Source of the DNA: Synechococcus sp. LTW-R
GTDB lineage: Bacteria; Cyanobacteriota; Cyanobacteriia; PCC-6307; Cyanobiaceae
Length of the DNA stretch: 64,000 nt
Assembly: GCF_014217875.1 (NCBI RefSeq)
Contig: NZ_CP059060.1
Location: 186,001-250,000, forward strand
Direction: 5' to 3'
The translations under genes were made by a program, and so were the position numbers. A model generated the notes under the pieces. It searched no databases. It was not told the DNA's origin and saw nothing but the letters and a program-made list of their open reading frames with translations. Of the stretch, positions 9,909 to 55,936 are shown piece by piece (positions within the stretch are counted from its first letter, which is position 1; each line of letters starts with the position of its first letter).

Positions 9909-9909
9909 G

Positions 9910-10495: not shown

Positions 10496-10536
10496 GGGCA
10501 ATCGTCCCCAGCGGGAGTGAACTGCAGGGATTCTGC

Positions 10537-11349: not shown

Positions 11350-11382
11350 GGCAGCGTGAGATCTGCAGCTGAGCCTATGGCC

Positions 11383-11972: not shown

Positions 11973-12015
11973 GGCGATGGTGCGACGTCCCGGCAAATCT
12001 AAGATGGTCTGCGCC

Positions 12016-12099: not shown

Positions 12100-12222
12100 T
12101 GCGTTGCACCCTGACTGAATGACAGTGGGGGCGAAGCAGGCCGCCTCCGCTTCATGACAAATCGGCTGACAGTTTGAAAAGCCCTGGCCAGGCTGATCAC
12201 TGTTGAGCTCTGGCTGTTGTTG

Positions 12223-13358: not shown

Positions 13359-13369
13359 GGAAAGAGACG

Positions 13370-14311: not shown

Positions 14312-14322
14312 GCCCTGAGCCG

Positions 14323-15999: not shown

Positions 16000-16574
16000 C
16001 CAGCACGACACCGCAGGCTGAGCTGGAGCTTCACCCCAAGCACAACCTCACCGGCTTCATCATTTTTCTGTGCTCGGAAAGTGTCATCTTTCTGGCCTTT
16101 TTCAGCGGCTACGCCCTGCTGAAGACCTCCGCCCTCGATTGGCTTCCCCCTGGTGTGGAGGGGTTGGAGTGGAAGATGCCACTGGTGAACACCGTGGTCT
16201 TGGTGTCGAGCTCGGGCACGATCGCCCTAGCCGAGCACTTCAAGGCCAAGGAGAACATGGCCCTCTTCCGCGGGTTCTGGCTCTTGAGTATGGCCATGGG
16301 GGCCTACTTCCTCTTCGGTCAGGCCGTTGAGTGGGGTGGTCTGAAGTTTGGTTTTACCTCCGGAACCTTTGGCGGAACCTTCTATCTCCTCACCGGTTTC
16401 CATGGTCTCCATGTGGCCACAGGAATCCTCTTGATGGGATTGATGTTGGTGAAGTCCTTTATCCCCGGGAATTACGCCGGTGGGGAGCAGGGCGTTCAGG
16501 CCACATCCCTCTTTTGGCACTTTGTGGATGTCATCTGGATCATCCTCTTTTTGCTGATCTACGTCTGGCAGTAG
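15996..16574 (+). CDS. ctaE: Haem-copper oxidase subunit III
   Basis: The 192-residue protein has five membrane helices and family phrases FLCSESVIFLAFFSGY, LLTGFHGLHVATGILLMG and LFWHFVDVIWIILFLLIYVWQ. Subunit III stabilises the oxidase and supports proton entry. It shares an ATGA overlap with ctaD, and the GMC-family gene starts 10 bases downstream. Confidence 0.93.
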   Translation: MTSTTPQAELELHPKHNLTGFIIFLCSESVIFLAFFSGYALLKTSALDWLPPGVEGLEWKMPLVNTVVLVSSSGTIALAEHFKAKENMALFRGFWLLSMAMGAYFLFGQAVEWGGLKFGFTSGTFGGTFYLLTGFHGLHVATGILLMGLMLVKSFIPGNYAGGEQGVQATSLFWHFVDVIWIILFLLIYVWQ

Positions 16575-16584
16575 CCCAAGAACC

Positions 16585-40897: not shown

Positions 40898-41766
40898 TGG
40901 CCTCTCCTCCGATGGCTGGGGGAGAGCCCTTGGCTCAAGCGATCCAGGATCACCGCCAAGATCACCACAGCGATCCCGCCTTCAAAGCCGAGCCCCACAT
41001 CGAGCTGCTGGATGCCCCGCAGCACCACATCACCCAAGCCGCCCCCACCAATCATCGAGGTGATTACCACCATCGACAGGGCCAACATGATCGTCTGGTT
41101 GACACCGCTCATCACGGTGGGCAAGGCGTTCGGGAGCTGCACCATCCAGAGCATTTGAAGGTCTGTGCAGCCAAAGGAGCGGCCCGCCTCCACCAAATCC
41201 GCTGGTACCTGGCGAATCCCCAGATGGGTTAGCCGGACGATTGGAGGCATCGCGAAAATCAAGGTGGCGATGATCGCGGGGACGGCTCCGGTGCTGAAGA
41301 GCATCACCGCAGGAATCAAATAGACAAAGGCCGGCATGGTCTGCATCAGGTCCAGCCCAGGGCGGATCAGTCGCCAGATCCAGCGCTGACGCGTTCCCAG
41401 AACACCGAGGGGAAATCCCAGCAGCAGCGCTAAGAGGGAGGCGGCCAGGACGAGGGCCAGGGTGTCCACCATGGGTTCCCAGAGCCCAAGGGCCAAGACC
41501 AGGTTCAAGCCCAGCAGGCTGAAGAGGGCAAAGCCACCGCCGACCAGGCGCCATCCCGCGATGGCAACCCCCACGGCAAACAGCCAGGGCGCCGGCAGGG
41601 CCAGGCCCCAGCCCAGTCCGCTCGCCAAGGCCTGGATGCCCTGTTGAACAACGCCAAACAATCCCTGGCCATGGTTGAGCAACCACTCCACGGCCGCATC
41701 AACGCTCTGGCCGACGGGGCCAGCCTGCTCAAGGCTGGCGATCAGAGGTGCAAAGGCGCCGCCCAT
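40894..41766 (-). CDS. proW: Glycine betaine ABC transporter, permease
   Basis: The 290-residue protein has several membrane helices and the permease signature EAGRSFGCTDLQMLWMVQLP plus NQTIMLALSMVVITSMIGGGGLG, as in ProW/OpuAB. The N-terminal segment matches the ProW extension. It overlaps both neighbours by a few bases, so the operon is tightly coupled. Confidence 0.93.
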   Translation of the reverse strand: MGGAFAPLIASLEQAGPVGQSVDAAVEWLLNHGQGLFGVVQQGIQALASGLGWGLALPAPWLFAVGVAIAGWRLVGGGFALFSLLGLNLVLALGLWEPMVDTLALVLAASLLALLLGFPLGVLGTRQRWIWRLIRPGLDLMQTMPAFVYLIPAVMLFSTGAVPAIIATLIFAMPPIVRLTHLGIRQVPADLVEAGRSFGCTDLQMLWMVQLPNALPTVMSGVNQTIMLALSMVVITSMIGGGGLGDVVLRGIQQLDVGLGFEGGIAVVILAVILDRLSQGLSPSHRRRGQ

Positions 41767-42836
41767 CAGCCCCCCTCCCGCAGGGTCTCCAGCAGCCGCC
41801 GGGGCGTGACGACACCCAGCAGCCGCCTCTGGTGATCAAGAACTGGTGTGGGCCATGGACTGCGCGCGACGACGGCGATGGCGTCGTTGACCAGCACCTT
41901 GGAATCCAGCGCACCTGCAGCATCGGCCTGGATCCAGCCTTCCTGGGGGCTCAGGATCCCGAGGAATTCCCCCGATGGGGTCAGCGCGAAACACAGCTGC
42001 TGATGGGCCCTGTCCGCGGGAGCGGCCCCATCGGGCAGCACCAGGGTCTGAGGGCAGGGCTCGAGGATCTGCTCGAGGTTCAGGACGGAACCCCGGTCGA
42101 CGCCCTTGAAGAACGCTCGAACATCGGGGCTGGCGGGTGCCGTCAGCAGCTCCAGGGGAGTCCCGCATTGGAGGACCTGCCCCGATTGCATCAGCGCGAT
42201 TCGATCGCCAATGCGAATGGCCTCATCGAGGTCATGGGAGATGAAGACCACCGTGCGTCGCTGTTCGGCCTGCAGATCCAGCAGCAGGTCCTGCATGTCC
42301 CTGCGGATCAGGGGATCGAGGGCGGAGAAGGCCTCATCCATCAACAGGATGGGGGGATCGAGCGCCAGGGCCCGGGCCAACCCCACCCGTTGCTGCATCC
42401 CCCCGGAGAGTTGCGCCGGTTTCAGGTGCAGCTGCTGTCCGAGACCGACGCGCTCCAGTGCCCTTTTGGCCGGAGCCAACCGCTTGGTCCTGGGCAGCCC
42501 TGCGACTTCGAGCCCAAAGGCCGCATTGTCGAGAACACTCCGCTGGGGGAAGAGTGCGAACGATTGGAACACCATGGCCATAGCGTGCCGGCGCAGGCGG
42601 TTGAGTTCGCGCTTGGAGAGTTCAGAGAGGGTCTGACCGCGGACGGCGACGGATCCCGAGCTGGGTTGGATCAGTCCGTTGATCATCCGCAGCAGGGTCG
42701 ATTTGCCCGAGCCCGAGAGGCCCATGACCACAAAGATTTCGCCCGGTTCGATCGCCAGGGAGACCTGCTGGACGGCGGCAGTGGACTGGCCTGGGAAGCG
42801 CTTGGAGAGGGCGTCGAGCGTGATCGCTGAGGACAC
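41766..42836 (-). CDS. proV: Glycine betaine ABC transporter, ATPase
   Basis: The protein (356 aa from GTG 42836) has Walker A GLSGSGKST, ABC signature LSGGMQQRVGLARAL and Walker B PILLMDEAFSALDP. A C-terminal CBS-like region (about 255-350) has typical CBS phrases such as VLVNDAIAVVARSPWPTPVLD and GVVTPRRLLE. CBS domains gate OpuA by ionic strength. A GTG at 42851 adds five residues, but the GGAG before 42836 favours the shorter start. Confidence 0.93.
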   Translation of the reverse strand: MSSAITLDALSKRFPGQSTAAVQQVSLAIEPGEIFVVMGLSGSGKSTLLRMINGLIQPSSGSVAVRGQTLSELSKRELNRLRRHAMAMVFQSFALFPQRSVLDNAAFGLEVAGLPRTKRLAPAKRALERVGLGQQLHLKPAQLSGGMQQRVGLARALALDPPILLMDEAFSALDPLIRRDMQDLLLDLQAEQRRTVVFISHDLDEAIRIGDRIALMQSGQVLQCGTPLELLTAPASPDVRAFFKGVDRGSVLNLEQILEPCPQTLVLPDGAAPADRAHQQLCFALTPSGEFLGILSPQEGWIQADAAGALDSKVLVNDAIAVVARSPWPTPVLDHQRRLLGVVTPRRLLETLREGG

Positions 42837-43143
42837 GGTTCTCCGACGCACCTCTTAAACGCTAGCCATGCAGGATTAGGGACGCAGGAGCTCAGGTCTT
42901 TAGCAAGTTCAAACATTTGCTCGGATGGCCTTTGCTCACTTTGATGTCGGCGACAGCAGGACACATCTGTTCTGCACGAGGCCCCGCTTTGCGCTGACAG
43001 CCTTGGTGCTCATCGATAGGTTGCGGCCATGGCGTACTTCATGGCTTCGTGAAGTGTGTCCGGAGGCCTCTTTTGAGGTGATCCCCCAGCCCTCTTGCTG
43101 AGCTCTGAACGGTCTGCGTCTGTCAGTGGCTCCCCCGGTTTGA
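42837..43143. promoter_or_regulatory. Divergent control region of the betaine import and synthesis genes
   Basis: This 307-base gap separates proV from the glycine methyltransferase gene. It holds no convincing gene. A palindrome ACTTCA-N8-TGAAGT at 43036-43055 may be an operator or an RNA hairpin. Divergent placement suggests common salt control of uptake and synthesis, which is inferred. Confidence 0.4.
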
Positions 43144-44016
43144 ATGACGACATCCCATCGCACCAAGACCTCGGCGGCCCATTGGCCCAAGTCCGCAGGG
43201 GCGAAGGATGAACAGCGTTTCGGTGCGGTCCCCGAAGCCGTTCGGGAGACCGATCACTACCAACAGGAGTACATCGAGCAATTTGCAGATCGTTGGGACC
43301 GATTAATTGATTGGGAGGCCAGAGCCCAGGCTGAAGGTGATTTTTATATCCGCATCCTGCGGGAGCACGGTGCGAAATCGGTGCTCGATGTCGCCACGGG
43401 GACAGGGTTTCACTCGATTCGACTCCTCCAGGAGGGGTTCGATGTGGTCAGCGCCGACGGCAGTCCAAACATGTTGGCGCGTGCCTTTCGCAATGCCCGT
43501 GACCGCAACCAGCTGTTGAGGACGGCCCAGGCCGATTGGCGCTTTCTGAACCGTGATATTCACGGGACCTTCGATGCGGTGATTTGCCTGGGTAACTCGT
43601 TCACCCATCTCTTTCGCGAGAAGGATCGTCGTAAATCCCTGGCTGAGTACTACGCGGTCTTGAAGCACAACGGCCTCTTGATTCTTGATCACCGCAACTA
43701 CGACCGCCTCTTAGAAGGTGGTGCGGCGGTGAAGCAAGGGAAGGGAACCGTGTATTGCGGAGAAGATGTTTCTGTGAGCCCTGATTGTGTCGATGAGGGC
43801 CTGGCACGCTTTCGCTACGCCTTCAGTGATGGAAGTACTTTCCATCTCAATATGTTCCCGCTTCGCTATGGCTATGTGCGCCGACTGATGCGGGAGGTGG
43901 GCTTCCAGAAGATCACCAGCTATGGGGACTATCAGCGCAGCAAGGATGATCCCGATTTCTATGCCCATGTCGCCCATAAGGCCTACGAGATCGATGGCGA
44001 TACGACGGTGATCTAG
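43144..44016 (+). CDS. gsmt: Glycine/sarcosine N-methyltransferase
   Basis: The 290-residue protein has the layout of cyanobacterial GSMT: HYQQEYIEQFADRWDRLIDWE near the start, SAM motif SVLDVATGTGFHSIRLL, GTFDAVICLGNSFTHL and LILDHRNYDRLL, as in eukaryote and Aphanothece GNMT relatives. It carries out the first two methylations from glycine to sarcosine and dimethylglycine. It is followed 2 bases later by the second methyltransferase gene. Confidence 0.92.
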   Translation: MTTSHRTKTSAAHWPKSAGAKDEQRFGAVPEAVRETDHYQQEYIEQFADRWDRLIDWEARAQAEGDFYIRILREHGAKSVLDVATGTGFHSIRLLQEGFDVVSADGSPNMLARAFRNARDRNQLLRTAQADWRFLNRDIHGTFDAVICLGNSFTHLFREKDRRKSLAEYYAVLKHNGLLILDHRNYDRLLEGGAAVKQGKGTVYCGEDVSVSPDCVDEGLARFRYAFSDGSTFHLNMFPLRYGYVRRLMREVGFQKITSYGDYQRSKDDPDFYAHVAHKAYEIDGDTTVI

Positions 44017-44018
44017 TC

Positions 44019-44870
44019 ATGACGCAGACGCATTTTTCCGCCGCGGAGCGCACGGCTTCGGACTACTACGACAGCGCTGATGCCGATTGTTTCTATGAAG
44101 AGGTTTGGGGCGGTGAAGACATTCACATCGGCCTCTACGCCTCCGAGACCGAAGCCATTGCACCGGCCAGTCAGCGCACGGTTAATGCCTTAATCGCTTT
44201 GATCGGCACCTTCCCGCGCGGGGCCACGGTTGTTGATTTGGGTTCGGGATATGGCGGTGCTGCCCGCCGCCTTGCGAAGGAGTTCGGGGCCCATGTCGAG
44301 GCGATCAACATCTCTTCCGTTGAAAATGCTCGGCACCGTCAGCTCAACTTGAGCGCCGGATTGCAGGACCACATCCAGGTGCACGATGCCTCCTTTGAGG
44401 ACGTTCCCCTGCCCTCGGGTTGTGCCGATGTTGTCTGGAGTCAGGACGCGATCCTGCACTCCGGCAACCGTCAGCAGGTGCTCCAGGAGGCGGCGCGGTT
44501 GTTGAAGCCAGGCGGGGTGATGGTCCTCACGGATCCGATGGCCGCCGATGGGGTGGAGACCGATTCCCTGAGCGCGATTCTCGACCGCATTCATCTGCCC
44601 GACATGGGCTCACCGGATCGCTATCGGGCCTGGGCCAGTCAGGCCGGTTTGGTCCGGGAGGTTTGGCAGGATCAGACGGCGATGTTGATTCGCCATTACA
44701 GCCGCGTGCGCGAGGAGCTCCTGCGCCGTGAGCAGGAGCTGAAGACCAAGATCAGTCCGGAGTACCTCCAGCGGATGGCCGCTGGCTTAGGCCATTGGAT
44801 TGATGGGGGACGCCAGGGACGCCTGAGTTGGGGGCTGATGCGCTTCCGCAAGCCCCTGCAGGAGGCCTGA
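44019..44870 (+). CDS. sdmt: Sarcosine/dimethylglycine N-methyltransferase
   Basis: The 283-residue protein has the partner-enzyme signatures: DCFYEEVWGGEDIHIGLY, SAM site TVVDLGSGYGGAARRLA and VDVVWSQDAILHSGNR-type text (ADVVWSQDAILHSGNR), then LLKPGGVMVLTDPM. It completes glycine betaine from sarcosine and dimethylglycine. Together with GSMT it makes betaine without choline, the usual route in halotolerant cyanobacteria. It overlaps the next small gene (TGATG). Confidence 0.93.
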   Translation: MTQTHFSAAERTASDYYDSADADCFYEEVWGGEDIHIGLYASETEAIAPASQRTVNALIALIGTFPRGATVVDLGSGYGGAARRLAKEFGAHVEAINISSVENARHRQLNLSAGLQDHIQVHDASFEDVPLPSGCADVVWSQDAILHSGNRQQVLQEAARLLKPGGVMVLTDPMAADGVETDSLSAILDRIHLPDMGSPDRYRAWASQAGLVREVWQDQTAMLIRHYSRVREELLRREQELKTKISPEYLQRMAAGLGHWIDGGRQGRLSWGLMRFRKPLQEA

Positions 44871-44998: not shown

Positions 44999-46438
44999 AT
45001 GGTGTTCAGCCCCACGCTTGCTGTTCAGCCCTTCTTGGCCCCAGGCATCGCCTGGGCCCTGGTGGTCATCTTTTCGGTGCTCTGGATCGCCCTTGGGGTG
45101 TCCTGGGGCCGGCGCGGCTCTGGTGATGCCGATGACTACATGCTGGCTGGCCGCAACATCGGTTTAGCCCTGAGCACCGCCACCTTGATGGCGTCTTGGG
45201 TGACCGGCAACACCACCTTGTTGGCGCCGGAGTTTGGCTACCGGAACGGTCTCTGGGGGATGTTCAGTTACGCCCTGGCCGGTCTGGGCTTGGTCCTGTT
45301 CGCGCCATTGGCCCTGCGAATCAAAACCCTGATGCCCAAGGGGCGCACCAGCGGTGACTTCATTCGCCTCCGCTATGGCCGTGCGGCCTGGTGGGTCTTC
45401 ATGGTGATCACCGCGATCTACACCCTGGGCTTCCTGATGACCCAGGCGATGGGAGCCGGGATCCTGCTGGAGGCGCTCTCGGGTTTCGATTACCGCCTGG
45501 GGATGGTCGTCGTGATCGGTGTCTCGACGATCTACACCCTCTACGGCGGGATGCGCGCCGTGGTCGGAACGGACTTCATTCAGTCCCTCTTGATCATGGG
45601 GCTGCTGGTCTTGGTTGCCGTCTTGGCGCTGCAGCAGTTCCCGGTTCCTGAGCTCCATCGCGCGTTGGTCGAGGAGCATCCGGAGCGGCTGAATTTGCTC
45701 TTGCCGGCGGGGTTGTTGATTGCGTGGAACTCCGCCCTCTTCTCCATGGGCGAGGTCTTCCACAACAACATCTGGTGGTCGCGGGTCTTCTCCAGTCGCG
45801 CCTCCGTCGTCTTCACCTCGTTCGTGCTTGGTGGATTGGCCTGGATGACGGTGCCGCTGGTGACCGGCTCCATCGGCCTGGTGGCGTTGGCTCAGTCGGT
45901 GGACCTGCCCCAGGTGAACATGCTCTTTCCGGTGGTGGCCTCCCAGCTGCTCGGGGCGGGGGGTGCGGCCTTGGTCTTTGTGGTCGTCTTTGCCTCGTTG
46001 ACCTCAACCTTGGATTCGCTCTTGGCGTCGACGGCGGATTTGGTGGCCGAAGACGTGGTCTTCAAGCTGCTGAATCCCAACTTGAGTGATGCCCAATTGC
46101 GCCAGGCCACGCGCCTGGTTGTTCTCGGGTTGGGGCTATTGACCTTGCTGCTCTCTTGGCCGCGGCTGGATTCCTTGGCGTCCGTGCTCTTCTTCACGGG
46201 TGCCCTGGTGGCCTCCACGATCTGGCCGGTGGCCTACGGCCTGTATTGGCCCAGTGCGAACCGGTGGGCCGCCATTGCCGCGATGGTCTCCGGCAGTGCC
46301 GTGGGCTTGGCTGCCTATGTGCTGATCGCGCCCTACTGCGCGGCATTGCTCTCCGCGGCGGTCTCGGCGGTGGTGATGGCCGTGGGCACCCAGTTGCAGC
46401 CCGAGCGCTTCAACTGGCTCACCTTGAGGGAGGGATAA
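44999..46438 (+). CDS. Sodium:solute symporter (SSS family)
   Basis: The 479-residue protein has about thirteen membrane helices and SSS features: DADDYMLAGRNIGLALSTATLMASWVTGNT (N-terminal Na+ site, trimmed), YTLYGGMRAVVGTDFIQSLL and a late FASLTSTLDSLLASTADLVAEDV. The family imports many solutes such as proline, urea, pantothenate or amino acids. The substrate is not clear from sequence. Its place after the betaine genes and before the carbamoyl-type operon suggests an osmolyte or its precursor. Confidence 0.88.
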   Translation: MVFSPTLAVQPFLAPGIAWALVVIFSVLWIALGVSWGRRGSGDADDYMLAGRNIGLALSTATLMASWVTGNTTLLAPEFGYRNGLWGMFSYALAGLGLVLFAPLALRIKTLMPKGRTSGDFIRLRYGRAAWWVFMVITAIYTLGFLMTQAMGAGILLEALSGFDYRLGMVVVIGVSTIYTLYGGMRAVVGTDFIQSLLIMGLLVLVAVLALQQFPVPELHRALVEEHPERLNLLLPAGLLIAWNSALFSMGEVFHNNIWWSRVFSSRASVVFTSFVLGGLAWMTVPLVTGSIGLVALAQSVDLPQVNMLFPVVASQLLGAGGAALVFVVVFASLTSTLDSLLASTADLVAEDVVFKLLNPNLSDAQLRQATRLVVLGLGLLTLLLSWPRLDSLASVLFFTGALVASTIWPVAYGLYWPSANRWAAIAAMVSGSAVGLAAYVLIAPYCAALLSAAVSAVVMAVGTQLQPERFNWLTLREG

Positions 46439-46887: not shown

Positions 46888-47958
46888 ATGCGTTTCAAGC
46901 CGATGGGGCCAGATGTTTACGGGGCGGCTTCTCCTAAAGACCTTCTTTTGGCCATTGAAGAAGATGGTGATGCACTTCACGACTTAGTCGACCAGCATGT
47001 AATATCTATCCAGCCATTCAGGGCTCATACACTGCTTCAATTGTTTCGTCTTGCCGCGAAATATGAGAGTAATCCAGAGCGATATACCTCGCACAACACA
47101 CCTCTAAAAGGTAAGATCCTCATAAATGCTTTTTACGAGCCTAGTACGCGTACCAGGCTATCGTTTGATAGTGCTTGGCACCGCCTGGGTGGCGACTCTA
47201 TAAATATAACGGACCGAAGTACAACTGGCTTGGCCAAGGGCGAGTCCTATGAAGATGTTGCGCATATGTTCAATAACTACGGTGATTGCATTGTGCTTCG
47301 GGATGGTGACTCGAACGCGGTCTATTCGATGGCGGACACTCTTCGTGTGCCCATTATTAACGCAGGTAATGGGATTGATGAGCATCCCACTCAGGCAATG
47401 GCCGACCTTTACACGATTCTAAAGTGGAGACCCTCTTTAGTTGCCTCTAAGGTCTCTCCAGGAGAGCGGGTGAGAATCGGAGTTGTTGGAATCCCAAGTC
47501 GTATGCGTACCGTTCGCTCGCTTCTGCGGATCCTTGCCAAATTCCCTCAAATTGTTGAGGAGCTTGTCCTCATACATGACCCTGCCAAGAACGCTGCCGA
47601 GGAATTGTTCGACCCCGGGCAATTGGAGGAGTTGCAGCAGGCTGGACTCAATGTGCGTTGCACCGGAGATCTGCAGGGTGAAATCCCTGGGCTTGATGTT
47701 ATCTATATCAATGCAATCGCTTGGGTGGGTGATAGCTATGAGGTCCATGGTAATTCCTTTCGGCTGACCAGAGATCTCCCGTACAAGCCAAATGCAATCG
47801 TTCTGCACCCTCTTGCTCGAGGCCCGGAGCTGAGTACCTGCCTTGATGACACCCCCCACAACTGGTATTTCAGTCAGGCCCGGGGTGCGGTCTTCCTGCG
47901 GATGGCGCTGCTCACCTGCATGGTGGATCGCACCAACCGAGTGATGGATGTGATCTGA
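46888..47958 (+). CDS. Aspartate-transcarbamylase-like carbamoyltransferase, acceptor unknown
   Basis: The 356-residue enzyme keeps the carbamoyl-phosphate site: FYEPSTRTRLSFD (STRTR at 86-90), AKGES (Lys117, like PyrB Lys84), VLRDG (Arg), DEHPTQAMADL (166-169) and HPLAR. Arg207 in MRTVRS matches PyrB Arg167. PyrB Arg229 and Gln231, which hold the second carboxylate of aspartate, correspond to Ala276 and Ala278 (INAIAW). So it is probably not an aspartate carbamoyltransferase. The gene is AT-richer than its neighbours. An ATG at 46843 would add 15 residues. Confidence 0.9.
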   Translation: MRFKPMGPDVYGAASPKDLLLAIEEDGDALHDLVDQHVISIQPFRAHTLLQLFRLAAKYESNPERYTSHNTPLKGKILINAFYEPSTRTRLSFDSAWHRLGGDSINITDRSTTGLAKGESYEDVAHMFNNYGDCIVLRDGDSNAVYSMADTLRVPIINAGNGIDEHPTQAMADLYTILKWRPSLVASKVSPGERVRIGVVGIPSRMRTVRSLLRILAKFPQIVEELVLIHDPAKNAAEELFDPGQLEELQQAGLNVRCTGDLQGEIPGLDVIYINAIAWVGDSYEVHGNSFRLTRDLPYKPNAIVLHPLARGPELSTCLDDTPHNWYFSQARGAVFLRMALLTCMVDRTNRVMDVI

Positions 47959-47970
47959 GGAGGAACGCAC

Positions 47971-50019
47971 ATGTGTGGAATTGGCGGTGTGTTCACCACC
48001 ATGGCGGATCAAGCCGTTGATCCCCAGCTTCTGGTCAACATGGCCGCGATTCAGGAGCATCGCGGTCCCGATGGTTTTGGCTATCGCACCGTCGATGGCT
48101 GTGGAGTGGGCTTCTGCCATGCCCGCCTCTCGATCATTGACCTGAATGAGACCAGGGCACGCCAACCGTTCTTGAGCGGAGAGCCGGACTCGGGTGCGAG
48201 GGTCCTGATGGCCCACAACGGTGAGTTCTATGACTTCCAGAGGATTCGCGCCGACCTGACGGCCCGCGGTGTTCGCTTCAGCAGCAAGAGCGATTCCGAG
48301 ATCCTCTTGCGCCTCTACCACCAGCAGGGATTGCAGGCGACCCTGCCGCAATTGCGCGGTGAATTCGCCTTCGCGCTCTATGACGAGGCCATCGATACGT
48401 TGCATCTCGTCCGGGATCGCTTCGGGATCAAACCCCAGTACTGGACGATCACGCCCCAGGGTTTGGTCTTCGGCTCAGAGCTGAAGGTGTTGTTTGCCCA
48501 TCCGGCGGTGGAGCGCCGCTTCACCTCGGAAGGGCTCTTCCATCAGTTGATGCAAACCATGGTCCCCGGGACCACGGCCTTTGATGGGATCCATCAGGTG
48601 CCGCCCGGCCACGGCATCAGCGTGCGCCGCCGCAACGGGAGCCTCCAGGTTGAGACCTGGAAGTACTGGGACATGAACTTCCCCCGCCAGGGCGAGCGGG
48701 ACGGCAGCAAGGGCGAGGCCGACCACATCGAGGCGATTCGTGCGGCTCTGCTCGAAGCGGTGGAGCTGCGGATGGTCGCCGATGTGCCCGTGGGTTGTTA
48801 CCTCTCGGGAGGCATCGACAGTTGCTCCATCCTTGGGCTGGCCGCCGCCGTCAGCCAGAGCCCGGTCAAGGCATTCACCATTGGTTTCGACGACGCCCGC
48901 TACGACGAGTCGCCGATCGCCAAGGAGATGGCGGACGCCACGGCGGCCGAGCAGGACGTGATGCGTCTCTCGGGCAAGGAGCTCTACGGCTGGATGGAGC
49001 GCACCCTCTGGCACACCGAGCGCACGATTTACAACACCCTGGCGGTGGCGAAATTCCTGATGAGCCGCCACGTCAACCAGGTCAACTACAAGGTGGTGAT
49101 GACTGGGGAGGGCTCCGATGAGCTCTTCGGTGGCTATCCGGCCTTCCGCCGCGACATGTTCCTGCACGGTCTCCAGGACCTGCCTGAGCAGGAGCGCCAA
49201 GCCTGGGAAGACCTGTTGCAGCAGTCCAATGCCCTGGTGCAGGGGGCGATGTTGGCGGCGGATCAAGTGGATGATCCGGACCTCGATGCGGTCGTGGGTT
49301 TCACCCCCAGTTGTCTCCAGCCCTGGTTGGCCTGTGCGCCGCTCGTCCCGGCCCTGCTCGCGGATGCCCATCGCGAGGCCCTCTCGGACTATTCCCCGGG
49401 CAAGGCCATTGCCATGACCCTGGATGCGGAACAACTCGAAGGACGCCACGCCCTCGATAAGGCTCAGTACGTCTGGATCAAGACGATGCTGGAGGGCCAA
49501 ATCCTGACCTGGGGCGGTGACCGGGTGGACATGGCGAACTCCATGGAGGCGCGTCCGGCCTTCTTGGATCACCATCTGGCCGCGGCGGCGGTCCAGGTGC
49601 CGCCGGAGTTGCGGATTAAGGGCAAGACAGAGAAGTACGTCCTGCGGGAGGCCATGGCCGGCCTGCTGCCTGAGGTGCTCTACAAGCGCGAGAAATTTGC
49701 CTTCATGGCTCCGCCGGCCCACACCGAGCCCGAAAAGTGGGAGCAGATGAAGCAGCTGGCGAACGACTACCTCAGCGATGAGGCGATCGAGGCCGCGGGA
49801 CTGCTCAGCGTCGCTGGTGTTCGGGCCCTCTTCGCCCGCCATGACGACCCGGCGACCACCGATGCCGATCGGGTGCAGATGGACGCCATGATCAACCATC
49901 TCCTCGGCGTGCAGATGCTGCACCGGATGTTCATTGCCGCGGACGTCCCGGCCCAGGCCAGGGCCAAGGCCGATGCCCTGGGTTGGCATCCCGCTCGGGA
50001 GGTTGCTGCCGTTTGCTGA
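47971..50019 (+). CDS. Asparagine-synthetase-like glutamine amidotransferase
   Basis: The 682-residue protein has an N-terminal class II glutaminase (MCGIGGVF with Cys2, RGPDG at 31-35, AHNGEFYDF) and a C-terminal ATP-dependent synthetase with PP-loop YLSGGIDSCS (279-284) and VMTGEGSDELFGGYP. It moves ammonia from glutamine to an activated carboxylate. As it lies 12 bases after the carbamoyltransferase gene, its acceptor may be the carbamoylated amino acid rather than aspartate. A GAGGA ribosome site fixes the start. Confidence 0.9.
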   Translation: MCGIGGVFTTMADQAVDPQLLVNMAAIQEHRGPDGFGYRTVDGCGVGFCHARLSIIDLNETRARQPFLSGEPDSGARVLMAHNGEFYDFQRIRADLTARGVRFSSKSDSEILLRLYHQQGLQATLPQLRGEFAFALYDEAIDTLHLVRDRFGIKPQYWTITPQGLVFGSELKVLFAHPAVERRFTSEGLFHQLMQTMVPGTTAFDGIHQVPPGHGISVRRRNGSLQVETWKYWDMNFPRQGERDGSKGEADHIEAIRAALLEAVELRMVADVPVGCYLSGGIDSCSILGLAAAVSQSPVKAFTIGFDDARYDESPIAKEMADATAAEQDVMRLSGKELYGWMERTLWHTERTIYNTLAVAKFLMSRHVNQVNYKVVMTGEGSDELFGGYPAFRRDMFLHGLQDLPEQERQAWEDLLQQSNALVQGAMLAADQVDDPDLDAVVGFTPSCLQPWLACAPLVPALLADAHREALSDYSPGKAIAMTLDAEQLEGRHALDKAQYVWIKTMLEGQILTWGGDRVDMANSMEARPAFLDHHLAAAAVQVPPELRIKGKTEKYVLREAMAGLLPEVLYKREKFAFMAPPAHTEPEKWEQMKQLANDYLSDEAIEAAGLLSVAGVRALFARHDDPATTDADRVQMDAMINHLLGVQMLHRMFIAADVPAQARAKADALGWHPAREVAAVC

Positions 50020-50025
50020 GGTTCA

Positions 50026-50053
50026 GCCCGTAACGGTCACAACCGTTACGGGC
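50026..50053 (+). repeat. Perfect 12-bp hairpin after the amidotransferase gene
   Basis: GCCCGTAACGGT at 50026-50037 pairs perfectly with ACCGTTACGGGC at 50042-50053, with a 4-base loop. No T run follows, so it is not a classic terminator. It could stop RNA decay, mark an RNA cleavage site or be a protein-binding palindrome between the synthesis and hydrolysis genes. Confidence 0.6.
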
Positions 50054-50178
50054 GCTCTCGGAGCTCTCCTCGATGGTGGGGGTGCTCTGTTGAACGCGAA
50101 GGTCTGCGGTTGGTTCTCTCTGCCCCGGGCGTTGGTACCCACACCACCACTCCACAGCGTCGGCCGACTCCCAATTCA

Positions 50179-51390
50179 GTGCGCCTGCTGGCGTCCTTGG
50201 AGGCCATGGCCGAGGTGGGACTGCAGCCCGATGGTTCGATCTGTCGCCGGGGCTTCACGGCTGAAGACCGTCAGGGCCGCGAACGGCTGAGTGAATGGAT
50301 GATCGATGCCGGCCTAAGCCTGTGCATCGATGCCGCTGGCAATTTGATTGGCCGGCTGGAGGGCTCGGACCCCAGCCTTCCAGCCCTCGTGACCGGCTCG
50401 CACCTCGACACGGTCCCAACCGGGGGGCGCTACGACGGCACCCTCGGTGTCTTGGCAGGCCTGGAAGTGGTTCGCGCCCTTCAGGACGCCGCGCTCCAGC
50501 TCCGCCACCCCTTCGAGCTAATCGTCTTCGCCGACGAGGAGTCCACCATGGTGGGCTGCAAGGGCATGGCCGGCACCGCGAGCGCTGACCCCAGCGATTA
50601 CACCACCAGCAACGGTGAGCCGATCCAGCGGAATCTGGCCCGTCTTGGGGGGGATTGGGACCGGCTGGCCAGTGCCGCCCGCCGCGATGACGCGATCGCC
50701 GCCTTCATCGAACTGCATGTCGAGCAGGGGGCCGTGCTCGAGGGGCGCGGAGACAGCATTGGTGTTGTTCAGGGCGTTGTCGGCCAACGCCGCTTCACGA
50801 TCCGCGTGGGCGGTCAGGCGAACCACGCCGGCACCACGCCGATGGATCAGCGTCAGGATGCCCTGGTCGCGGCAGCGCAGGTGGTCTTGGCCGTCCAGGC
50901 CCTCGCCCTGGCGCATCCCGGTGATCCCGTGGCCACGGTCGGCAAGTTTGAGGTCTGGCCGAATGCCGCCAACGTCGTTCCTGGTGAGGTCCAGTGCAGC
51001 GTCGACCTGCGCGATCTCGACCCCGAGGTGTTGTCCGCGTTGACCGACGAGCTGCAGCGGCGCCTGGCCGCCATCGCCGAGTCGAGCGGCTGCCGCGTGA
51101 CGATGGAGCCGCAGTTTTCGGTCGACCCCACCCCCGCCGCTCCGGCGCTGATGGACGCGATCGAGGTCGCGGCGACCGAGCTGGGCTTGTCCCACAGTGC
51201 CTTGCCGAGCCGGGCCAGCCACGACGCCCAGGAATTGGGTCGTCGCTGGCCGATGGGGATGGTCTTTGTCCCCAGCCACCGCGGCTTGAGCCATTCCTCC
51301 GCGGAGTACACCAGCCTCGAGCAGTGCGTGGCCGGTACGGCGGTGCTGCTCGAGGCGTTCCTGCGGCTGGACGCGCAGCTTCAGGGATGA
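50179..51390 (+). CDS. M20-family N-carbamoyl-amino-acid hydrolase
   Basis: The protein (403 aa from GTG 50179) has GSHLDTVPTGGRYDGTLGVL (metal His and Asp), FADEESTMVGCKGMAG (Glu pair), IELHVEQGAVLE and a C-terminal SRASHDAQEL, the pattern of L-carbamoylases, ureidopropionases and allantoate amidohydrolases. These enzymes split an N-carbamoyl group to amino acid, CO2 and ammonia. The start is uncertain, as an upstream TTG (50110) extends the frame without family likeness. It overlaps the next gene by 4 bases. Confidence 0.9.
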   Translation: MRLLASLEAMAEVGLQPDGSICRRGFTAEDRQGRERLSEWMIDAGLSLCIDAAGNLIGRLEGSDPSLPALVTGSHLDTVPTGGRYDGTLGVLAGLEVVRALQDAALQLRHPFELIVFADEESTMVGCKGMAGTASADPSDYTTSNGEPIQRNLARLGGDWDRLASAARRDDAIAAFIELHVEQGAVLEGRGDSIGVVQGVVGQRRFTIRVGGQANHAGTTPMDQRQDALVAAAQVVLAVQALALAHPGDPVATVGKFEVWPNAANVVPGEVQCSVDLRDLDPEVLSALTDELQRRLAAIAESSGCRVTMEPQFSVDPTPAAPALMDAIEVAATELGLSHSALPSRASHDAQELGRRWPMGMVFVPSHRGLSHSSAEYTSLEQCVAGTAVLLEAFLRLDAQLQG

Positions 51391-52106
51391 CCTTCTCGAT
51401 CCTGGCGCGTGACCCCTCCAACGGTCGCTTTGGAGTGGCCGTGGCCACCTGTCATCTTGCGGTGGGATCGACCGTGCCCCACATCCGCTCCGGCGTCGGT
51501 GCCGTGGCGACCCAGGCCCATACGAACCCCTACCTCGGCATCTGTGGTCTGGAGAGGATGGAGCAGAACCGCGATGCCGAGTCGGTCCTGGCGAGCCTGC
51601 TGCGGGATGACCCCCAAATCGAGCACCGCCAATTGCACTTGATTGACGGCTGCGGCCGCACGGCGGGTTGGACCGGTGAGGCCTGCGGCCCCTACGCCGG
51701 CCACCGCTGTCATCCGGATCTGGCCGTGGCGGGCAACTTCCTCGCGGGTGAGGCGGTGCTGCTGGCGATGGAGGAGGCCTTCCTCTTGAGCGACCCCTCC
51801 TGGAAATTGGGGCGAAGGCTGCTCACGGCCCTGCAGGCCGGTGAGGAGGCCGGCGGCGATCGACGCTCCCCCCATGCCACGTCGGCGGCCCTCCAGGTCA
51901 GCGGTGAGGCGGCTTTTCCGCTGTTGGATCTGCGGGTGGACTTTGAGGACTGCGCAGTCGACGCCTTGAACGCGCTCTATGGGCGCAGTCAGCAACGTTG
52001 GGTTCAGCAATGGAGGGACTCCTTTGCTGAACTCCCCAATCCCGCGAGTCGCGCGATGAACCGGACCGTCACCCCATTGGTTGGGGACGATCCGTCGGTG
52101 GCTTAG
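51387..52106 (+). CDS. DUF1028 family protein (Ntn-hydrolase-like)
   Basis: The 239-residue protein begins MTFSILARDPSNGRFGVAVA, the DUF1028 signature, and continues CHLAVGSTVPHIRSGVGAVATQAHTNPYLG and AVAGNFLAGEAVL. The family has an Ntn-type fold and is often next to amidohydrolases, so amide hydrolysis is a reasonable guess. The natural substrate is not known to me. It is the last gene of the operon and converges with the phosphatase gene (overlap 4 bases). Confidence 0.85.
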   Translation: MTFSILARDPSNGRFGVAVATCHLAVGSTVPHIRSGVGAVATQAHTNPYLGICGLERMEQNRDAESVLASLLRDDPQIEHRQLHLIDGCGRTAGWTGEACGPYAGHRCHPDLAVAGNFLAGEAVLLAMEEAFLLSDPSWKLGRRLLTALQAGEEAGGDRRSPHATSAALQVSGEAAFPLLDLRVDFEDCAVDALNALYGRSQQRWVQQWRDSFAELPNPASRAMNRTVTPLVGDDPSVA

Positions 52107-52885
52107 CCGATCAGGTCGCGAATCACCCGGGCCCATCCTTCGCCATGGGCGGCGGGGGCTAAGAGGTAGCGCTTCTGCTCCAGGGCGCGGCGGAAGGCGG
52201 GGTGCGGGCCACTCGGCCCCGGAACAACAACGGCCACATCGGCCGCCTCCAGCAATGGGATGTCGTTGGGGGAGTCCCCCAGCCCGAGCACCCGCGGCAG
52301 CGGGCCGCCGAGCCGTTGCTTCAGCCGCGACAACGCGCCCCCTTTGCTCACGTCGGGCCCCAGCAGATGACCCATGCGGTTGCCTTGCACCACACCCAGA
52401 CCCAGGGAGGCGGCCAGGGCGGGTAGCCGTTTCCTCCCTTCCGCGGATGGGGGCACAAACGGCACACTCCAGCAGCGCCGCTGGGCTTGGGCTAGGGCTT
52501 CACCCCCGAGGCCCAAGAGGCGTTGCCCCTCGCTTTCGCTGAGCTCCTCGAGGGGCATGAGCCGTTCACCCAGCAGCGCCTCCAAGGCATCCAGCTGGGG
52601 CCGCAAGTGGCGGTGGTGGATGCCGAGGGCCTCTTCCCACTCCTCTCCGCGGGCGTCTTCGCCATGGATGGCTCCACCGTTTTCGACGATGAAGGGATCG
52701 CGAAGGCCAGCGGCATCTCGAAAGCCCCGGACCTCCTCCGCGGTTTTGCTCGTGCAGGGGATCACGGGAATCTGTTGCTCCTGCAGCCAGCGCAGGGTCG
52801 TGCGGGCCGGCTCCCAGCTGTAGCAGTGGTCCAGCAACGTCCCATCCAGGTCGGTGACGATCCACCAGGAGTTGGAATGAGTCAT
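52103..52885 (-). CDS. gpgP: Glucosyl-3-phosphoglycerate (mannosyl-3-phosphoglycerate-type) phosphatase
   Basis: The protein (260 aa) is a Cof-type HAD phosphatase: WIVTDLDGTLLDH (Asp12 nucleophile, Asp14), PCTSKTAEEV, VSKGGALSRLKQRLGG and LGLGDSPNDIPLLEAAD. The phrases match mannosyl/glucosyl-3-phosphoglycerate phosphatases, which finish glucosylglycerate from the GpgS product. It overlaps the upstream GH13 gene by 4 bases. Confidence 0.85.
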   Translation of the reverse strand: MTHSNSWWIVTDLDGTLLDHCYSWEPARTTLRWLQEQQIPVIPCTSKTAEEVRGFRDAAGLRDPFIVENGGAIHGEDARGEEWEEALGIHHRHLRPQLDALEALLGERLMPLEELSESEGQRLLGLGGEALAQAQRRCWSVPFVPPSAEGRKRLPALAASLGLGVVQGNRMGHLLGPDVSKGGALSRLKQRLGGPLPRVLGLGDSPNDIPLLEAADVAVVVPGPSGPHPAFRRALEQKRYLLAPAAHGEGWARVIRDLIG

Positions 52886-54618
52886 CGGCTGCTGATCCAA
52901 TAGACGCCAAAGGGTTCCAGCTCCAGTTGGCGCTCGGCCTTCACCGCTCCAGCTGGATTGAGGTGATCGATCCATTCCGGTGGAGAGGACGCACCCCAGA
53001 GCGATGCCAACACGAGCGATTGACGCGTGGCGCTGAAGTTGTGGATAGCCCACAGACGGGCTGCTCCTAGGCCACGCTCGAGAATCACCAAATCGGAGCG
53101 TTCACCACTGAGCACCCGCATCGGCGAGTCCGGGTTAAGGGCCGGGAGCTTGGCCCGTTGTTCCATGGCGAACTGCAGCTGGGCGATGTTGCTGCTGGCG
53201 GCTTGACCAGGGTCTTGGAGCTGGAGCTCTAGGGCTCTGGCGTTGAACTGTGGTCGGTTCAAGTCCCGGCGATGGCCGCTGGCGTGGAAGCGGCTCGTGT
53301 CGTTGGGGGCGGCCAGCAGGGCCGGCAGATAAAAGGCAGGCACCCCCGGCAGCGCCAGCTTGAAGCGCTGGCTGAGCAGGAAACGCTCCTGCTGCCATCG
53401 CCCTGGATCTCGACCGGAATCGGCCATAGCGCTCCACCAGCTGATGTTGATTTCGTAGGGGGCCTCGCTCCCATCACTGAGGCGTCGGTGGCTGATCAAG
53501 CCGCCCCGTTGCTCACATCCCGCCAGGAGGTGGTGCAGGCGCGGTTGATCCATCAGTCCCTCCAGTGGCCGCAGGCCGACACCGTCATGGCTGGCACTGA
53601 AGTTCAGCAGGTTGGTCCTCTTGGGGAGATCCGGCCAACCGGCCAGCCAGCGGTTGAGGAGGTCGCAGCGCTCGCTCTGGCAGGCCTCGAGCAGCAGCGG
53701 GGGCAGGGGGAAGTTGTAGGCCAGGTGTGCTTCCCGACCGGATCGCAGGTAGGAGAGGTTCTCCTCCTCCGGGACGTTCGTCTCCGTCACGACAGCCCCC
53801 CCCGGGGCTTGGTCCTCCTGCAGCAGGCGCAGCACTTCGACGATGGCGTGGGCTTGGGGCTGGTGAATGCAGCTCGTGAAGGGTTCCTTCCAGACGTATC
53901 CAACGGCGTCCAGCCGCAACCAGCCGACGCCGTGGTGGAAGAGGCGTTGCATCAGCCGGGCGAAATGACGCAGCACCTCGGGCTCCCGCCAGTTCAGGTC
54001 TACCTGGTCGGGGCCGAAGGTGGTCCAAACCTGCTTGCGGCCGCCCAGGGGGCTGATCAAGGGCGAGCTGCGGGGGCGTACGACCTGCGACCAGCAGGGA
54101 TCGGGTCTGGCCTGCAGGATGCAGGAGCGTCCGGGTTCCGCGTCTTCCAGGCATTGGTGCACCCAGGGGTGCGAGGCCGAGACGTGGTTCAGCACAAGGT
54201 CAGCCATCAAGAGACGTCCGCGGCTCAAGGCCTCGAGGTCGTCCCAATCACCAAAGCGTGGCTCGAGCTCCTCGTGGCTGGAGATGGCAAAGCCCCCGTC
54301 GCTGCTGGATCGCCAAAAGGGCAGAACGTGGACGATGGAGGAGAGGCCTCGGAGCGGGCCATCCAGCAGTTCTTGGAGCAGGGGAATGCTGGTGCGATCC
54401 GCATCGATGACCGAATCGGCGTAGCAGATCAGCACGCAGGTCGTATTGCACCAGGGCACGTCCGGCTGGGTGTGCATCTGCGCACCGATTCGCCCGGACT
54501 GCAGCAAATGAGACGACAAGCTTTCGATCTCGTTTGAAGACTGCCCCGGGTAAAGACCGAGAAGCAACAGTTCCAACTGTTCCTGCCGGTCCAACTCAAC
54601 CACCAGTGCTCCCCTCAC
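52882..54618 (-). CDS. GH13 sucrose-phosphorylase-like enzyme (probable glucosylglycerate phosphorylase)
   Basis: The 578-residue protein has the GH13 catalytic triad: Asp237 in GWLRLDAVGYVWKEP, Glu279 in VVTETNVPEEEN and Asp345 in SASHDGVGLRP. It also has LLMADLVLNHVSASH and FGPDQVDLNWREPEV, phrases of the sucrose phosphorylase subfamily GH13_18. Members next to gpgS often act on glucosylglycerate. It begins at a GTG (54618). A second GTG at 54603 is possible. It is divergent from gpgS by 52 bases. Confidence 0.85.
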   Translation of the reverse strand: MRGALVVELDRQEQLELLLLGLYPGQSSNEIESLSSHLLQSGRIGAQMHTQPDVPWCNTTCVLICYADSVIDADRTSIPLLQELLDGPLRGLSSIVHVLPFWRSSSDGGFAISSHEELEPRFGDWDDLEALSRGRLLMADLVLNHVSASHPWVHQCLEDAEPGRSCILQARPDPCWSQVVRPRSSPLISPLGGRKQVWTTFGPDQVDLNWREPEVLRHFARLMQRLFHHGVGWLRLDAVGYVWKEPFTSCIHQPQAHAIVEVLRLLQEDQAPGGAVVTETNVPEEENLSYLRSGREAHLAYNFPLPPLLLEACQSERCDLLNRWLAGWPDLPKRTNLLNFSASHDGVGLRPLEGLMDQPRLHHLLAGCEQRGGLISHRRLSDGSEAPYEINISWWSAMADSGRDPGRWQQERFLLSQRFKLALPGVPAFYLPALLAAPNDTSRFHASGHRRDLNRPQFNARALELQLQDPGQAASSNIAQLQFAMEQRAKLPALNPDSPMRVLSGERSDLVILERGLGAARLWAIHNFSATRQSLVLASLWGASSPPEWIDHLNPAGAVKAERQLELEPFGVYWISSR

Positions 54619-54670
54619 TCATCCAGATATCGAGCAGCTGGCGGCTGAGTGTTGTCGCATTGATTACTGC

Positions 54671-55936
54671 ATGGACTTCCAGCAAGGACTGATCACCACG
54701 GTCCATGACTACGGCTTCTCGGGGGCCGCCCCGGAGTCGTTCCATCAGCAGTTGCGTGATCGGCCAACGGCCCTGCTGCTCCCCTGCTTGATGGAGGAGT
54801 TCCGCCGTCCGGCATTGCGCCTGATTCGTGAGGTGCTCTCCGGGTTGGACGGACTGCAGTCGCTGGTGATCGCCCTGGCGGCGGATTCCGTGGACGAGGT
54901 CTTGGAGGCCGAAGCGTTCTGGGCAGAGATGCCTTTTCCCGTGCACGTGCACTGGACCAATGGCCCGGCGGTGATCGAGCTCCTGCAGTCGGTGAAGTCC
55001 CTGGGGCTCGACGTGCTGGCCCCCCCTGGCAAGGGCTGGGCCGTTTGGCAGGGCCTGGGGGTGGCCTGCCGAGAGGCTGAGGTCGTTGGTCTTTTTGATG
55101 CCGACATCCGGACGTTCTCGCCGGCCTACCCCCAGCGGATGCTCCAGCCCCTGTTGGATCGCTCGACGGGTGTGGCTTACGTCAAAGCCTTCTACAGCCG
55201 GCTGTCTCTCGAAACCCATGCCCTTCAGGGCCGGGCGACCCGTTTGTTTGTGGCGCCCCTGCTGAGCAGCCTGGAGCAGATCGTTGGTCCGCTTCCCTAT
55301 CTGCGCTATCTCCAGTCGTTCCGCTACCCCCTCGCGGGGGAGTTCGCCTTCACGACGGATCTGGCGATGAACTTGCGCATTCCCTGCGATTGGGGTTTGG
55401 AGATCGGCCTGCTGTCGGAGGTCTATCGCCATGTCGCCATCAGCCGCATTGCCCAGGTGGATCTGGGGGTGTTTGACCACAAGCACAAGGCCCTCGGCAC
55501 CGCCCCCGACCAGGGGCTCAAGCGGATGGCCAGCGAAATCCTGCGGACGGTCCTGCGCGGCTTGATGGAGCACGAAGGCTGCAACTTGCTTAGCGAGCAA
55601 CTCCCCACCCTGGAAGCGCTTTACCGCCGGGTGGGGCAAGACCGGGTCAGACAGTTCGGACTGGACTCCGCCGTTAATGGACTCCCCCATGACGGCCATG
55701 GCGAGGAACTGGCTGTTCAGGACTTTGCGCAGCTGCTGCGTCCGGCAATCAAGGATCTGATGGATACGCCATCGGTTCAGCAGTTGCCCAGCTGGTCTCG
55801 GGTGCTCAGCTGTAGCCAGGATCTCCAGCACGCCCTGGCCGCGGCGGGGCAGTCCCGATCAGTAGGACGTAACGCTGACTACGTCACGACCCCATCGGAT
55901 ACGGCTCAATTGGATGAGCCATTTGTCGCTGCATGA
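54671..55936 (+). CDS. gpgS: Glucosyl-3-phosphoglycerate synthase
   Basis: The 421-residue glycosyltransferase (GT81-like) has LGLDVLAPPGKGWAVWQGL and the metal site LFDADIRTFSP (Asp143, Asp145). It also has VAYVKAFYSRL and LAGEFAFTTDLAMNLRIPCDWGLEIGLLSEVYRH (trimmed), as in GpgS. It transfers glucose from a nucleotide sugar to 3-phosphoglycerate, and GpgP then removes phosphate. Glucosylglycerate is a known compatible solute of marine picocyanobacteria. It overlaps the next small gene by 4 bases (ATGA). Confidence 0.92.
   Translation: MDFQQGLITTVHDYGFSGAAPESFHQQLRDRPTALLLPCLMEEFRRPALRLIREVLSGLDGLQSLVIALAADSVDEVLEAEAFWAEMPFPVHVHWTNGPAVIELLQSVKSLGLDVLAPPGKGWAVWQGLGVACREAEVVGLFDADIRTFSPAYPQRMLQPLLDRSTGVAYVKAFYSRLSLETHALQGRATRLFVAPLLSSLEQIVGPLPYLRYLQSFRYPLAGEFAFTTDLAMNLRIPCDWGLEIGLLSEVYRHVAISRIAQVDLGVFDHKHKALGTAPDQGLKRMASEILRTVLRGLMEHEGCNLLSEQLPTLEALYRRVGQDRVRQFGLDSAVNGLPHDGHGEELAVQDFAQLLRPAIKDLMDTPSVQQLPSWSRVLSCSQDLQHALAAAGQSRSVGRNADYVTTPSDTAQLDEPFVAA

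Follow-up and report, generated by a model that had tools for sequence, protein, structure and literature searches.

In the pathway to N-acetylglutaminylglutamine amide (NAGGN), the carboxyl group of a glutamine compound with an N-terminal cap is converted to an amide by an AsnB-like enzyme, which yields a neutral solute. Another glutamine derivative, N-alpha-carbamoyl-glutamine 1-amide (CGA), is given as an osmotic solute of Ectothiorhodospira marismortui in an excerpt of PMC1224877, which cites its description in 1991 by Galinski and Oren; among openly licensed papers, none was found that assigns genes to CGA. Here, four adjacent genes are analysed in a 64,000-nucleotide stretch of Synechococcus sp. 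LTW-R (contig NZ_CP059060.1, positions 186,001 to 250,000; "the window"), whose genome is a single contig of 2,415,533 bases. All four lie on the + strand and encode, in this order, a carbamoyltransferase, an AsnB-like amidotransferase, an M20 hydrolase and a DUF1028 protein. They probably constitute an operon for making and recycling CGA, and with it a compatible-solute pathway that relies on a new pair of enzymes, a reading to which we assign a probability of roughly 0.7; the substrate, the product, the order of the steps and the physiological role are what we infer.

The closest described relatives of the first enzyme are aspartate carbamoyltransferase (ATCase) and ureidoglycine carbamoyltransferase (UGTCase). 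In the available part of PMC4581275, R229 and Q231 of ATCase hold the side chain of aspartate, R167 and K84 hold the alpha-carboxylate, and the 240s loop carries the motif RxQxER; in UGTCase this loop has residues of its own, a motif H(T/S)LP is present and the equivalents of R167 and K84 are retained.

The gene cluster and its counterpart in a CGA producer

The cluster in the window comprises the following features:

46888-47958, +: carbamoyltransferase (PF02729, PF00185), the proposed glutamine carbamoyltransferase of step 1
47713-47721, +: codons for A276-I277-A278, where the R-x-Q by which ATCases anchor the side chain of aspartate has been lost
47971-50019, +: AsnB-like glutamine-dependent amidotransferase of 682 aa (PF00733 and glutamine amidotransferase domains; N-terminal MCG), the proposed N-carbamoylglutamine alpha-amidating enzyme of step 2
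50110-51390, +: hydrolase of the M20 hydantoinase/carbamoylase family, the putative carbamoyl-removing enzyme (start codon either TTG 50110 or GTG 50179)
51387-52106, +: DUF1028 protein, the proposed N-terminal-Thr hydrolase taking off the C1 amide

The carbamoyltransferase and AsnB-like genes are 12 bases apart, the M20 and DUF1028 genes share a 4-base ATGA overlap, and the gap before the M20 gene measures 90 bases with the TTG start or 159 with the GTG start. The place, order and common strand of the four genes, as given in a preliminary description of this DNA, are confirmed by the coordinates together with the family matches, and its figure of about 160 bases before the hydrolase corresponds to the GTG start. 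Besides the cluster, the genome encodes two more carbamoyltransferases, one more strong AsnB-like protein and two weak AsnB-like matches, so the cluster copies are not its sole ATCase or AsnB.

The CGA reading draws on chemistry, linkage and active site, which agree, and above all on the occurrence of the cluster in the type strain of the CGA producer. A search of 84,980 species genomes returned 89 relatives of the transferase, 80 of which were kept as loci. One of these, L055, is recorded as Ectothiorhodospira mobilis DSM 4180. Since E. marismortui is listed as DSM 4180T (PMC7824335), marismortui being an alternative name of mobilis (PMC1224877), the type strain of the producer carries the cluster. 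CGA had been guessed in the preliminary description from chemistry alone; the search for relatives arrived at its producer independently. In L055 the genes are arranged as follows:

7903-9189: M20 hydrolase
9186-9920: isochorismatase-family hydrolase
9977-11041: transferase
11092-13104: AsnB-like amidotransferase

These four genes share one strand, and upstream of them lies a gene for sucrose synthase; the family scan of the second hydrolase (9096-9917) included about 30 extra upstream residues, 9186 being the better start. Three carbamoyltransferases were found in E. marismortui (that of the cluster, another that has the ATCase motif and a third of the ornithine carbamoyltransferase type), as were five strong AsnB-like genes (that of the cluster, one of the XrtA type, one of the N-acetylglutaminylglutamine type and two beside glycosyltransferase genes). 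With the others accounted for in this way, the cluster holds the sole candidates of its kind seen in the draft genome. No parallel NAGGN operon was seen among the scanned neighbours of the TIGR03104 gene of E. marismortui, which are Cas4/Cas1, a diguanylate cyclase and a dihydroorotase.

The carbamoyltransferase

The predicted structure of the carbamoyltransferase (pLDDT 85.7) has an ATCase-like fold, and the carbamoyl-phosphate residues S86-T87-R88-T89, R138 and H166-P-T-Q169 are present, in agreement with the SxRT, beta4 Arg and HPxQ features of ATCases. R207 and K117, which correspond to the alpha-carboxylate residues R167 and K84 of ATCase, are invariant in all 25 clade rows of the alignment. 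At the positions of R229 and Q231 the enzyme carries A276 and A278; throughout the clade the former position is A, S or T and the latter A, V or I (25/25), whereas R-x-Q is kept in all nine ATCase-type rows of the same alignment. The RxQxER motif is thus replaced by N-[AST]-I-[AVI] in every clade row. A second loop, H-x-x-P, reads H307-P-L-A310, its proline being alanine in 25/25 clade rows and proline in all 21 other carbamoyltransferases; the H(T/S)LP motif of UGTCase is likewise replaced by HPLA in the 25 rows.

Retention of the alpha-carboxylate residues and loss of those for a side-chain carboxylate are what one would expect if the amino acid to be bound has its alpha-carboxylate free and no charge on its side chain. 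As read from the alignment, the active site rules out a side-chain anchor of the ATCase type, and the enzyme should bind its amino acid by the free alpha-carboxylate, not one with an acidic side chain. Such binding would place carbamoylation first and amidation second, and would make glutamine a good candidate for the substrate.

The 25 rows form a clade with support 100/100 against the 21 other carbamoyltransferases, and a profile of the clade gives 556-630 bits for members and at most 201 bits for the others; because this profile, like that of the amidotransferase below, was built largely from the same cluster proteins, the high scores of members arise by construction, and the information lies in how low the others score. 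No carbamoyltransferase model reaches its cut-off with the window protein: the ATCase model (TIGR00670) gives 196 of 237 bits and the ornithine carbamoyltransferase model (TIGR00658) 95 of 281, the DxxxSMG motif of the latter enzymes being absent, with N-[AST]-I-A-W in that loop. The Ectothiorhodospira and Thioalkalivibrio transferases are 58-61% identical to that of the window, fall into one clade with it and have the same active-site letters.

The amidotransferase

The AsnB-like enzymes of the clusters form a clade as well, separated from others by a branch with SH-aLRT 99 in a tree of the quick kind without bootstrap, from which L159 (no MCG start found) and ten cluster copies (duplicates) were left out. 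With their own profile they score 1205-1294 bits and 19 other proteins at most 516, the latter value belonging to a sister protein of Shewanella OPT22 (L156 769-2700) that lies beside an efflux pump and DsbD and is uninformative on function. The window protein is 63-65% identical to its Ectothiorhodospira and Thioalkalivibrio counterparts. It passes the asparagine synthase model TIGR01536 (409 of 267 bits), which says little about function because the XrtA and N-acetylglutaminylglutamine enzymes pass it too. The models specific for these two, TIGR03108 (XrtA/PEP-CTERM amidotransferase; 364 of 817 bits) and TIGR03104 (N-acetylglutaminylglutamine amidotransferase; 287 of 570 bits), are not reached. 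By analogy, the N-acetylglutaminylglutamine amidotransferase would be the nearest functional precedent.

The hydrolases

The M20 hydrolase exceeds the cut-off of TIGR01879 (hydantoinase/carbamoylase amidases; 387 of 204 bits), and its best NCBIfam match is the N-carbamyl-L-glutamate amidohydrolase ErtE (NF058540). Allantoate amidohydrolases are also among its matches.

The DUF1028 protein matches PF06267 with 216 of 26 bits. Its predicted structure (pLDDT 82, 14 sequences) matches 2IMH and then chains of the proteasome, Anbu and HslV, with a Foldseek E of about 1e-5 to proteasome and Anbu and a VIA Z of about 12. Thr2 is invariant (14/14) and, in a second-look structure alignment, is aligned with residue 1 of several proteasome beta chains. 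The model thus has the fold of N-terminal-nucleophile (Ntn) hydrolases; the catalytic role is a prediction, a shared fold being no proof of activity. To our knowledge, no activity has been described for DUF1028, and no paper containing the word "DUF1028" was found among the openly licensed papers searched.

The isochorismatase-family proteins that occur in other clusters retain Asp, Lys and Cys (7/7) at the positions that we take to be the catalytic triad of the family; N-carbamoylsarcosine and biuret amidohydrolases are among their relatives. I read both this hydrolase and the DUF1028 protein as putative amide-removing enzymes; the presence of two unrelated amide-bond hydrolase folds in the same place beside the M20 enzyme fits a second, amide-removing step.

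Linkage and distribution

The AsnB-like gene is directly next to the transferase gene in 75 of the 76 loci with at least 700 bases downstream, broken or partial copies (L018, L007, L024 and L046) being counted as present, and in a second set of 31 loci it is on the same strand in every one; this set overlaps the first in part (the window itself, both Ectothiorhodospira genomes, perhaps others). Linkage at this level greatly exceeds chance. The preliminary description would have been contradicted by genes unlinked in other genomes, and here the outcome went in its favour, also in the type strain of the CGA producer.

For the hydrolases, counts refer to 49 full loci, each flanked by 5 kb or more on either side, 31 of the 80 loci being left out. 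An M20 gene is nearby in 47 of the 49, a DUF1028 gene in 24 and an isochorismatase-family hydrolase gene in 18; the latter two never occur together, and 42 loci with M20 have one or the other. In cyanobacteria, all 24 full loci have M20 and DUF1028; among 25 full non-cyanobacterial loci, 23 have M20 and 18 the isochorismatase-family hydrolase. A symporter gene is directly upstream of the transferase gene in 29/49; the symporter of the window, absent from the earlier gene list, belongs to a gene set conserved in many relatives. In the Cyanobium loci L012 and L052 the DUF1028 gene is inverted.

Cyanobacterial carriers among the 80 loci are Synechococcus, Prochlorococcus, Cyanobium and Aphanocapsa; others include E. 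mobilis DSM 237 and DSM 4180, Thioalkalivibrio, Nitrosomonas halophila, Shewanella, Pleionea, Aliikangiella, Pseudomaricurvus, Candidatus Tenderia and a SAR324 bacterium. The transferase family (E <1e-180) was found in 17 of 386 sampled cyanobacterial genomes, all within the taxonomic family of the window (58 members listed), where 9/10 genomes of genus g9 and 3/3 of the window's own genus carry it. In the family holding E. marismortui, 41 of 47 genomes have the transferase (one of them in two pieces), and in its class 23 of 369 sampled genomes do (E <1e-100; one partial). Mobile transfer was considered and rejected: there was no plasmid match at E 1e-40, and the phage collection gave six records, which at just 30-34% identity and with three of them being Salmonella records do not represent the transferase family of the cluster.

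Several loci have peculiarities of their own. One cyanobacterial genome has two transferase copies (G427:C1:1682799-1683863 and 2535830-2536900). L009 (1-7135, filed as Gammaproteobacteria CPC316) and L038 (1-7693, Trichodesmium MAG_R03) contain Synechococcus- or Prochlorococcus-like clusters and are probably mis-binned contigs. The AsnB-like gene of Aphanocapsa feldmannii (L046 11099-13150) is in two pieces with a stretch missing and may be decaying or misassembled. A tRNA-Thr gene about 640 bases upstream of the transferase gene in two Prochlorococcus-type loci (L019 9287-9359, L024 9287-9360) may indicate a tRNA-bound genomic island. Downstream of the AsnB-like gene of Nitrosomonas halophila come two DUF1538 proteins (L048 13475-14763). 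In several gammaproteobacterial loci a small open reading frame (142-155 aa), which could encode a regulator, precedes the symporter or M20 gene; no Pfam match was found in the four tested:

L044 7957-8412: small open reading frame
L048 8020-8445: small open reading frame
L072 5992-6450: small open reading frame
L075 1952-2416: small open reading frame

Genomic context and habitat

The cluster of the window is flanked by the following genes:

44999-46438, +: transporter of the sodium:solute symporter family, upstream of the carbamoyltransferase gene, possibly for solute re-uptake
43144-44870, +: glycine/sarcosine and sarcosine/dimethylglycine N-methyltransferases (glycine betaine synthesis)
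39911-42851, -: substrate-binding protein, permease and ATPase of an OpuA-type (glycine betaine-type) ABC transporter
52103-55936: HAD phosphatase (-), sucrose-phosphorylase-like glycosidase (-) and glucosyl-3-phosphoglycerate synthase-like gene (+), in the context of glucosylglycerate metabolism

The compatible-solute surroundings recognized in the preliminary description are thus found on both sides, with betaine methyltransferases and the OpuA-type transporter on one and genes resembling those of glucosylglycerate synthesis and phosphorolysis on the other (downstream). Together with the sucrose synthase gene in E. marismortui, these neighbours support the CGA reading.

According to the available part of PMC9361551, a sodium:solute symporter, "possibly a glucose transporter" (CK_00001517), is present in all marine, 11/17 brackish and 2/67 freshwater picocyanobacteria, including the freshwater strain ATX 6A2. 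L012 is from ATX 6A2 and has symporter, transferase and AsnB-like genes together; its symporter may be CK_00001517. In the available passages of a salt study of Thioalkalivibrio versutus, genes for nitrate, ammonium and glutamine synthesis are strongly up at high salt and betaine genes are not; the authors explain the rise of the nitrogen genes by betaine, and these passages contain no search for CGA. The response would suit a second, nitrogen-rich solute. A published osmoregulation model of Synechococcus WH8102 gave no match for asparagine or aspartate terms, nor did two salinity papers. Searches of openly licensed papers for CGA, the organism, the Prochlorococcus gene pair, Thioalkalivibrio and marine Synechococcus found none assigning these genes, in line with the earlier view of the pathway as undescribed.

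Proposed pathway and alternative readings

The cluster could make and recycle CGA in the following manner: The transferase would place the carbamoyl group of carbamoyl phosphate on the alpha-amino group of glutamine, whose alpha-carboxylate would be held by R207 and K117. The AsnB-like enzyme would then amidate the alpha-carboxylate of N-carbamoylglutamine, using ATP and glutamine-derived ammonia, and after these two steps both charges of the amino acid would be masked. For recycling, the DUF1028 protein (the isochorismatase-family hydrolase in gammaproteobacteria) would take the amide off and the M20 enzyme the carbamoyl group, returning glutamine, and the symporter may recapture leaked solute. 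This chemistry, with glutamine carbamoylated, its carboxyl amidated and both steps reversed, had been put forward in the preliminary description and fits every test run, glutamine and CGA being the presumed substrate and product. That a carbamoyltransferase for an amino acid other than aspartate is paired with an amidotransferase is much more likely than the exact product.

Several points weigh against CGA as the product. On the side of the enzymes, the M20 score for ErtE (425 of 520 bits) is under the cut-off of that model, the gammaproteobacterial M20 enzymes are only 31-41% identical to that of the window, and with alanine in place of proline in the HPLA loop of all clade members catalysis may differ unpredictably. 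On the side of the distribution, the transferase is present in just 1/16 sampled genomes of genus g2 (1.6-1.8 Mb genomes), five full loci (L044, L045, L047, L048 and L051) have M20 without either amide hydrolase, L049 and L079 have no M20, and L079 (SAR324) is the sole exception to the linkage in 76 loci, having a transferase (51% identical) without an amidotransferase. At this locus (10001-17000) the transferase reads SIIW instead of AIAW, and the next genes encode an MFS/HEAT/cyclic-nucleotide protein, an Amidase-family protein and a weak TauD match. On the side of physiology, four nitrogens per CGA molecule would be costly for open-ocean cells, an operon that encodes both synthesis and breakdown would have to be regulated if a futile cycle is to be avoided, and the available parts of Thioalkalivibrio salt-stress papers report glycine betaine with no mention of CGA. 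Finally, the CGA reading is a prediction from sequences and structure models.

An unlikely alternative is that the same two steps act on another amino acid (asparagine, glutamate, serine or similar) and yield another carbamoylated amino-acid amide, at least in cyanobacteria. The side chain is not fixed by the sequence, the cyanobacterial M20 enzyme scores best against a hydrolase for N-carbamyl-L-glutamate, and the cyanobacterial and gammaproteobacterial hydrolases differ. Both synthetic enzymes, however, are close in sequence to those of Ectothiorhodospira and Thioalkalivibrio, within one clade and with the same active-site letters, and it is CGA that has been reported as carbamoylated amino-acid amide from one of these carriers.

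It is also doubtful, though conceivable, that CGA or a relative serves mainly as a nitrogen store or overflow product, the co-located hydrolases then being the main point and not osmotic protection. The four nitrogens of CGA and the hydrolases near the synthesis genes in 47 of the 49 full loci would suit such a role; the salt response of T. versutus, as far as the available passages describe it, links nitrogen supply to solute synthesis and does not separate the two roles. Against it stand the salt-solute neighbourhoods in the window and in E. marismortui, the marine, halophilic or soda-lake character of the named carriers, judged by their names, and the description of CGA as an osmotic solute in the excerpt cited above; moreover, storage and osmolyte roles can coexist.

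DUF1028 is often seen with hydantoinases, and allantoate amidohydrolases are among the M20 matches, but a pathway of purine or hydantoin breakdown with UGTCase and an M20 allantoate amidohydrolase is very improbable: breakdown of ureidoglycine or allantoin was rejected on motifs, UGTCase having H(T/S)LP and its own 240s loop as opposed to HPLA and N-[AST]-I-A-W in the cluster clade, and an ATP-spending glutamine amidotransferase would be hard to fit into degradation. A spare ATCase and asparagine synthetase of ordinary pyrimidine and asparagine metabolism, although the nearest named families are these two and the asparagine synthase model is passed, was rejected as scarcely credible on model scores, active site and separate clades, given that every ATCase model stays below cut-off, R-x-Q is lost in 25/25 rows, two further carbamoyltransferases are present in the genome and the asparagine synthase model also accepts the XrtA and N-acetylglutaminylglutamine enzymes.

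Implications

Extended to all carriers, the CGA reading becomes an evenly balanced proposition: CGA could be a solute rich in nitrogen that is widespread among marine Synechococcus, some Prochlorococcus, the sulfur bacteria of soda lakes and other gammaproteobacteria of saline waters. A glutamine carbamoyltransferase and an amidotransferase, both new, would make it, and M20 would recycle it together with either DUF1028, as an N-terminal-Thr amidase, or the unrelated cysteine hydrolase that DUF1028 replaces. If true, CGA would be a component of the dissolved organic nitrogen of the sea that has been overlooked. Both the producer of CGA and abundant phototrophs of the sea now offer candidate genes for it, which makes an old question directly testable; a new specificity within the carbamoyltransferase family and a first function for DUF1028 are proposed, and a likely misannotation as second aspartate carbamoyltransferase and asparagine synthase is corrected. 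A glutamine carbamoyltransferase, if real, would be of interest for making carbamoylated amino acids; carbamylglutamate is named as a production target in the available part of PMC4581275.

Comparison with known systems

The system most similar to that of the window is the cluster of E. marismortui: the transferase, the amidotransferase and the M20 hydrolase are shared, whereas the second hydrolase is of the isochorismatase family instead of DUF1028 and the symporter is missing. With ATCase the window transferase shares the fold, the carbamoyl-phosphate site and the alpha-carboxylate residues; it differs in lacking RxQxER, in having HPLA instead of HPLP or HPGP, and in belonging to a separate clade. 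UGTCase is likewise an enzyme of the ATCase branch with a new specificity that keeps the R167 and K84 equivalents; its H(T/S)LP motif is missing from the window transferase, which has another 240s loop. The M20 hydrolase belongs to the same fold family as ErtE and the hydantoinases/carbamoylases; ErtE is its best NCBIfam match, yet the protein stays below the ErtE cut-off, and the E. marismortui M20 scores better with another M20 model. In its predicted structure, the DUF1028 protein has in common with Ntn hydrolases (proteasome beta subunits, HslV) and 2IMH the fold and the position of the residue after Met, but is only ~10% identical to proteasome chains. NAGGN synthesis (TIGR03104), finally, also relies on AsnB-like amidation of an N-capped glutamine compound, whereas here the proposed cap is carbamoyl, no dipeptide would be involved and the enzyme is of another clade.

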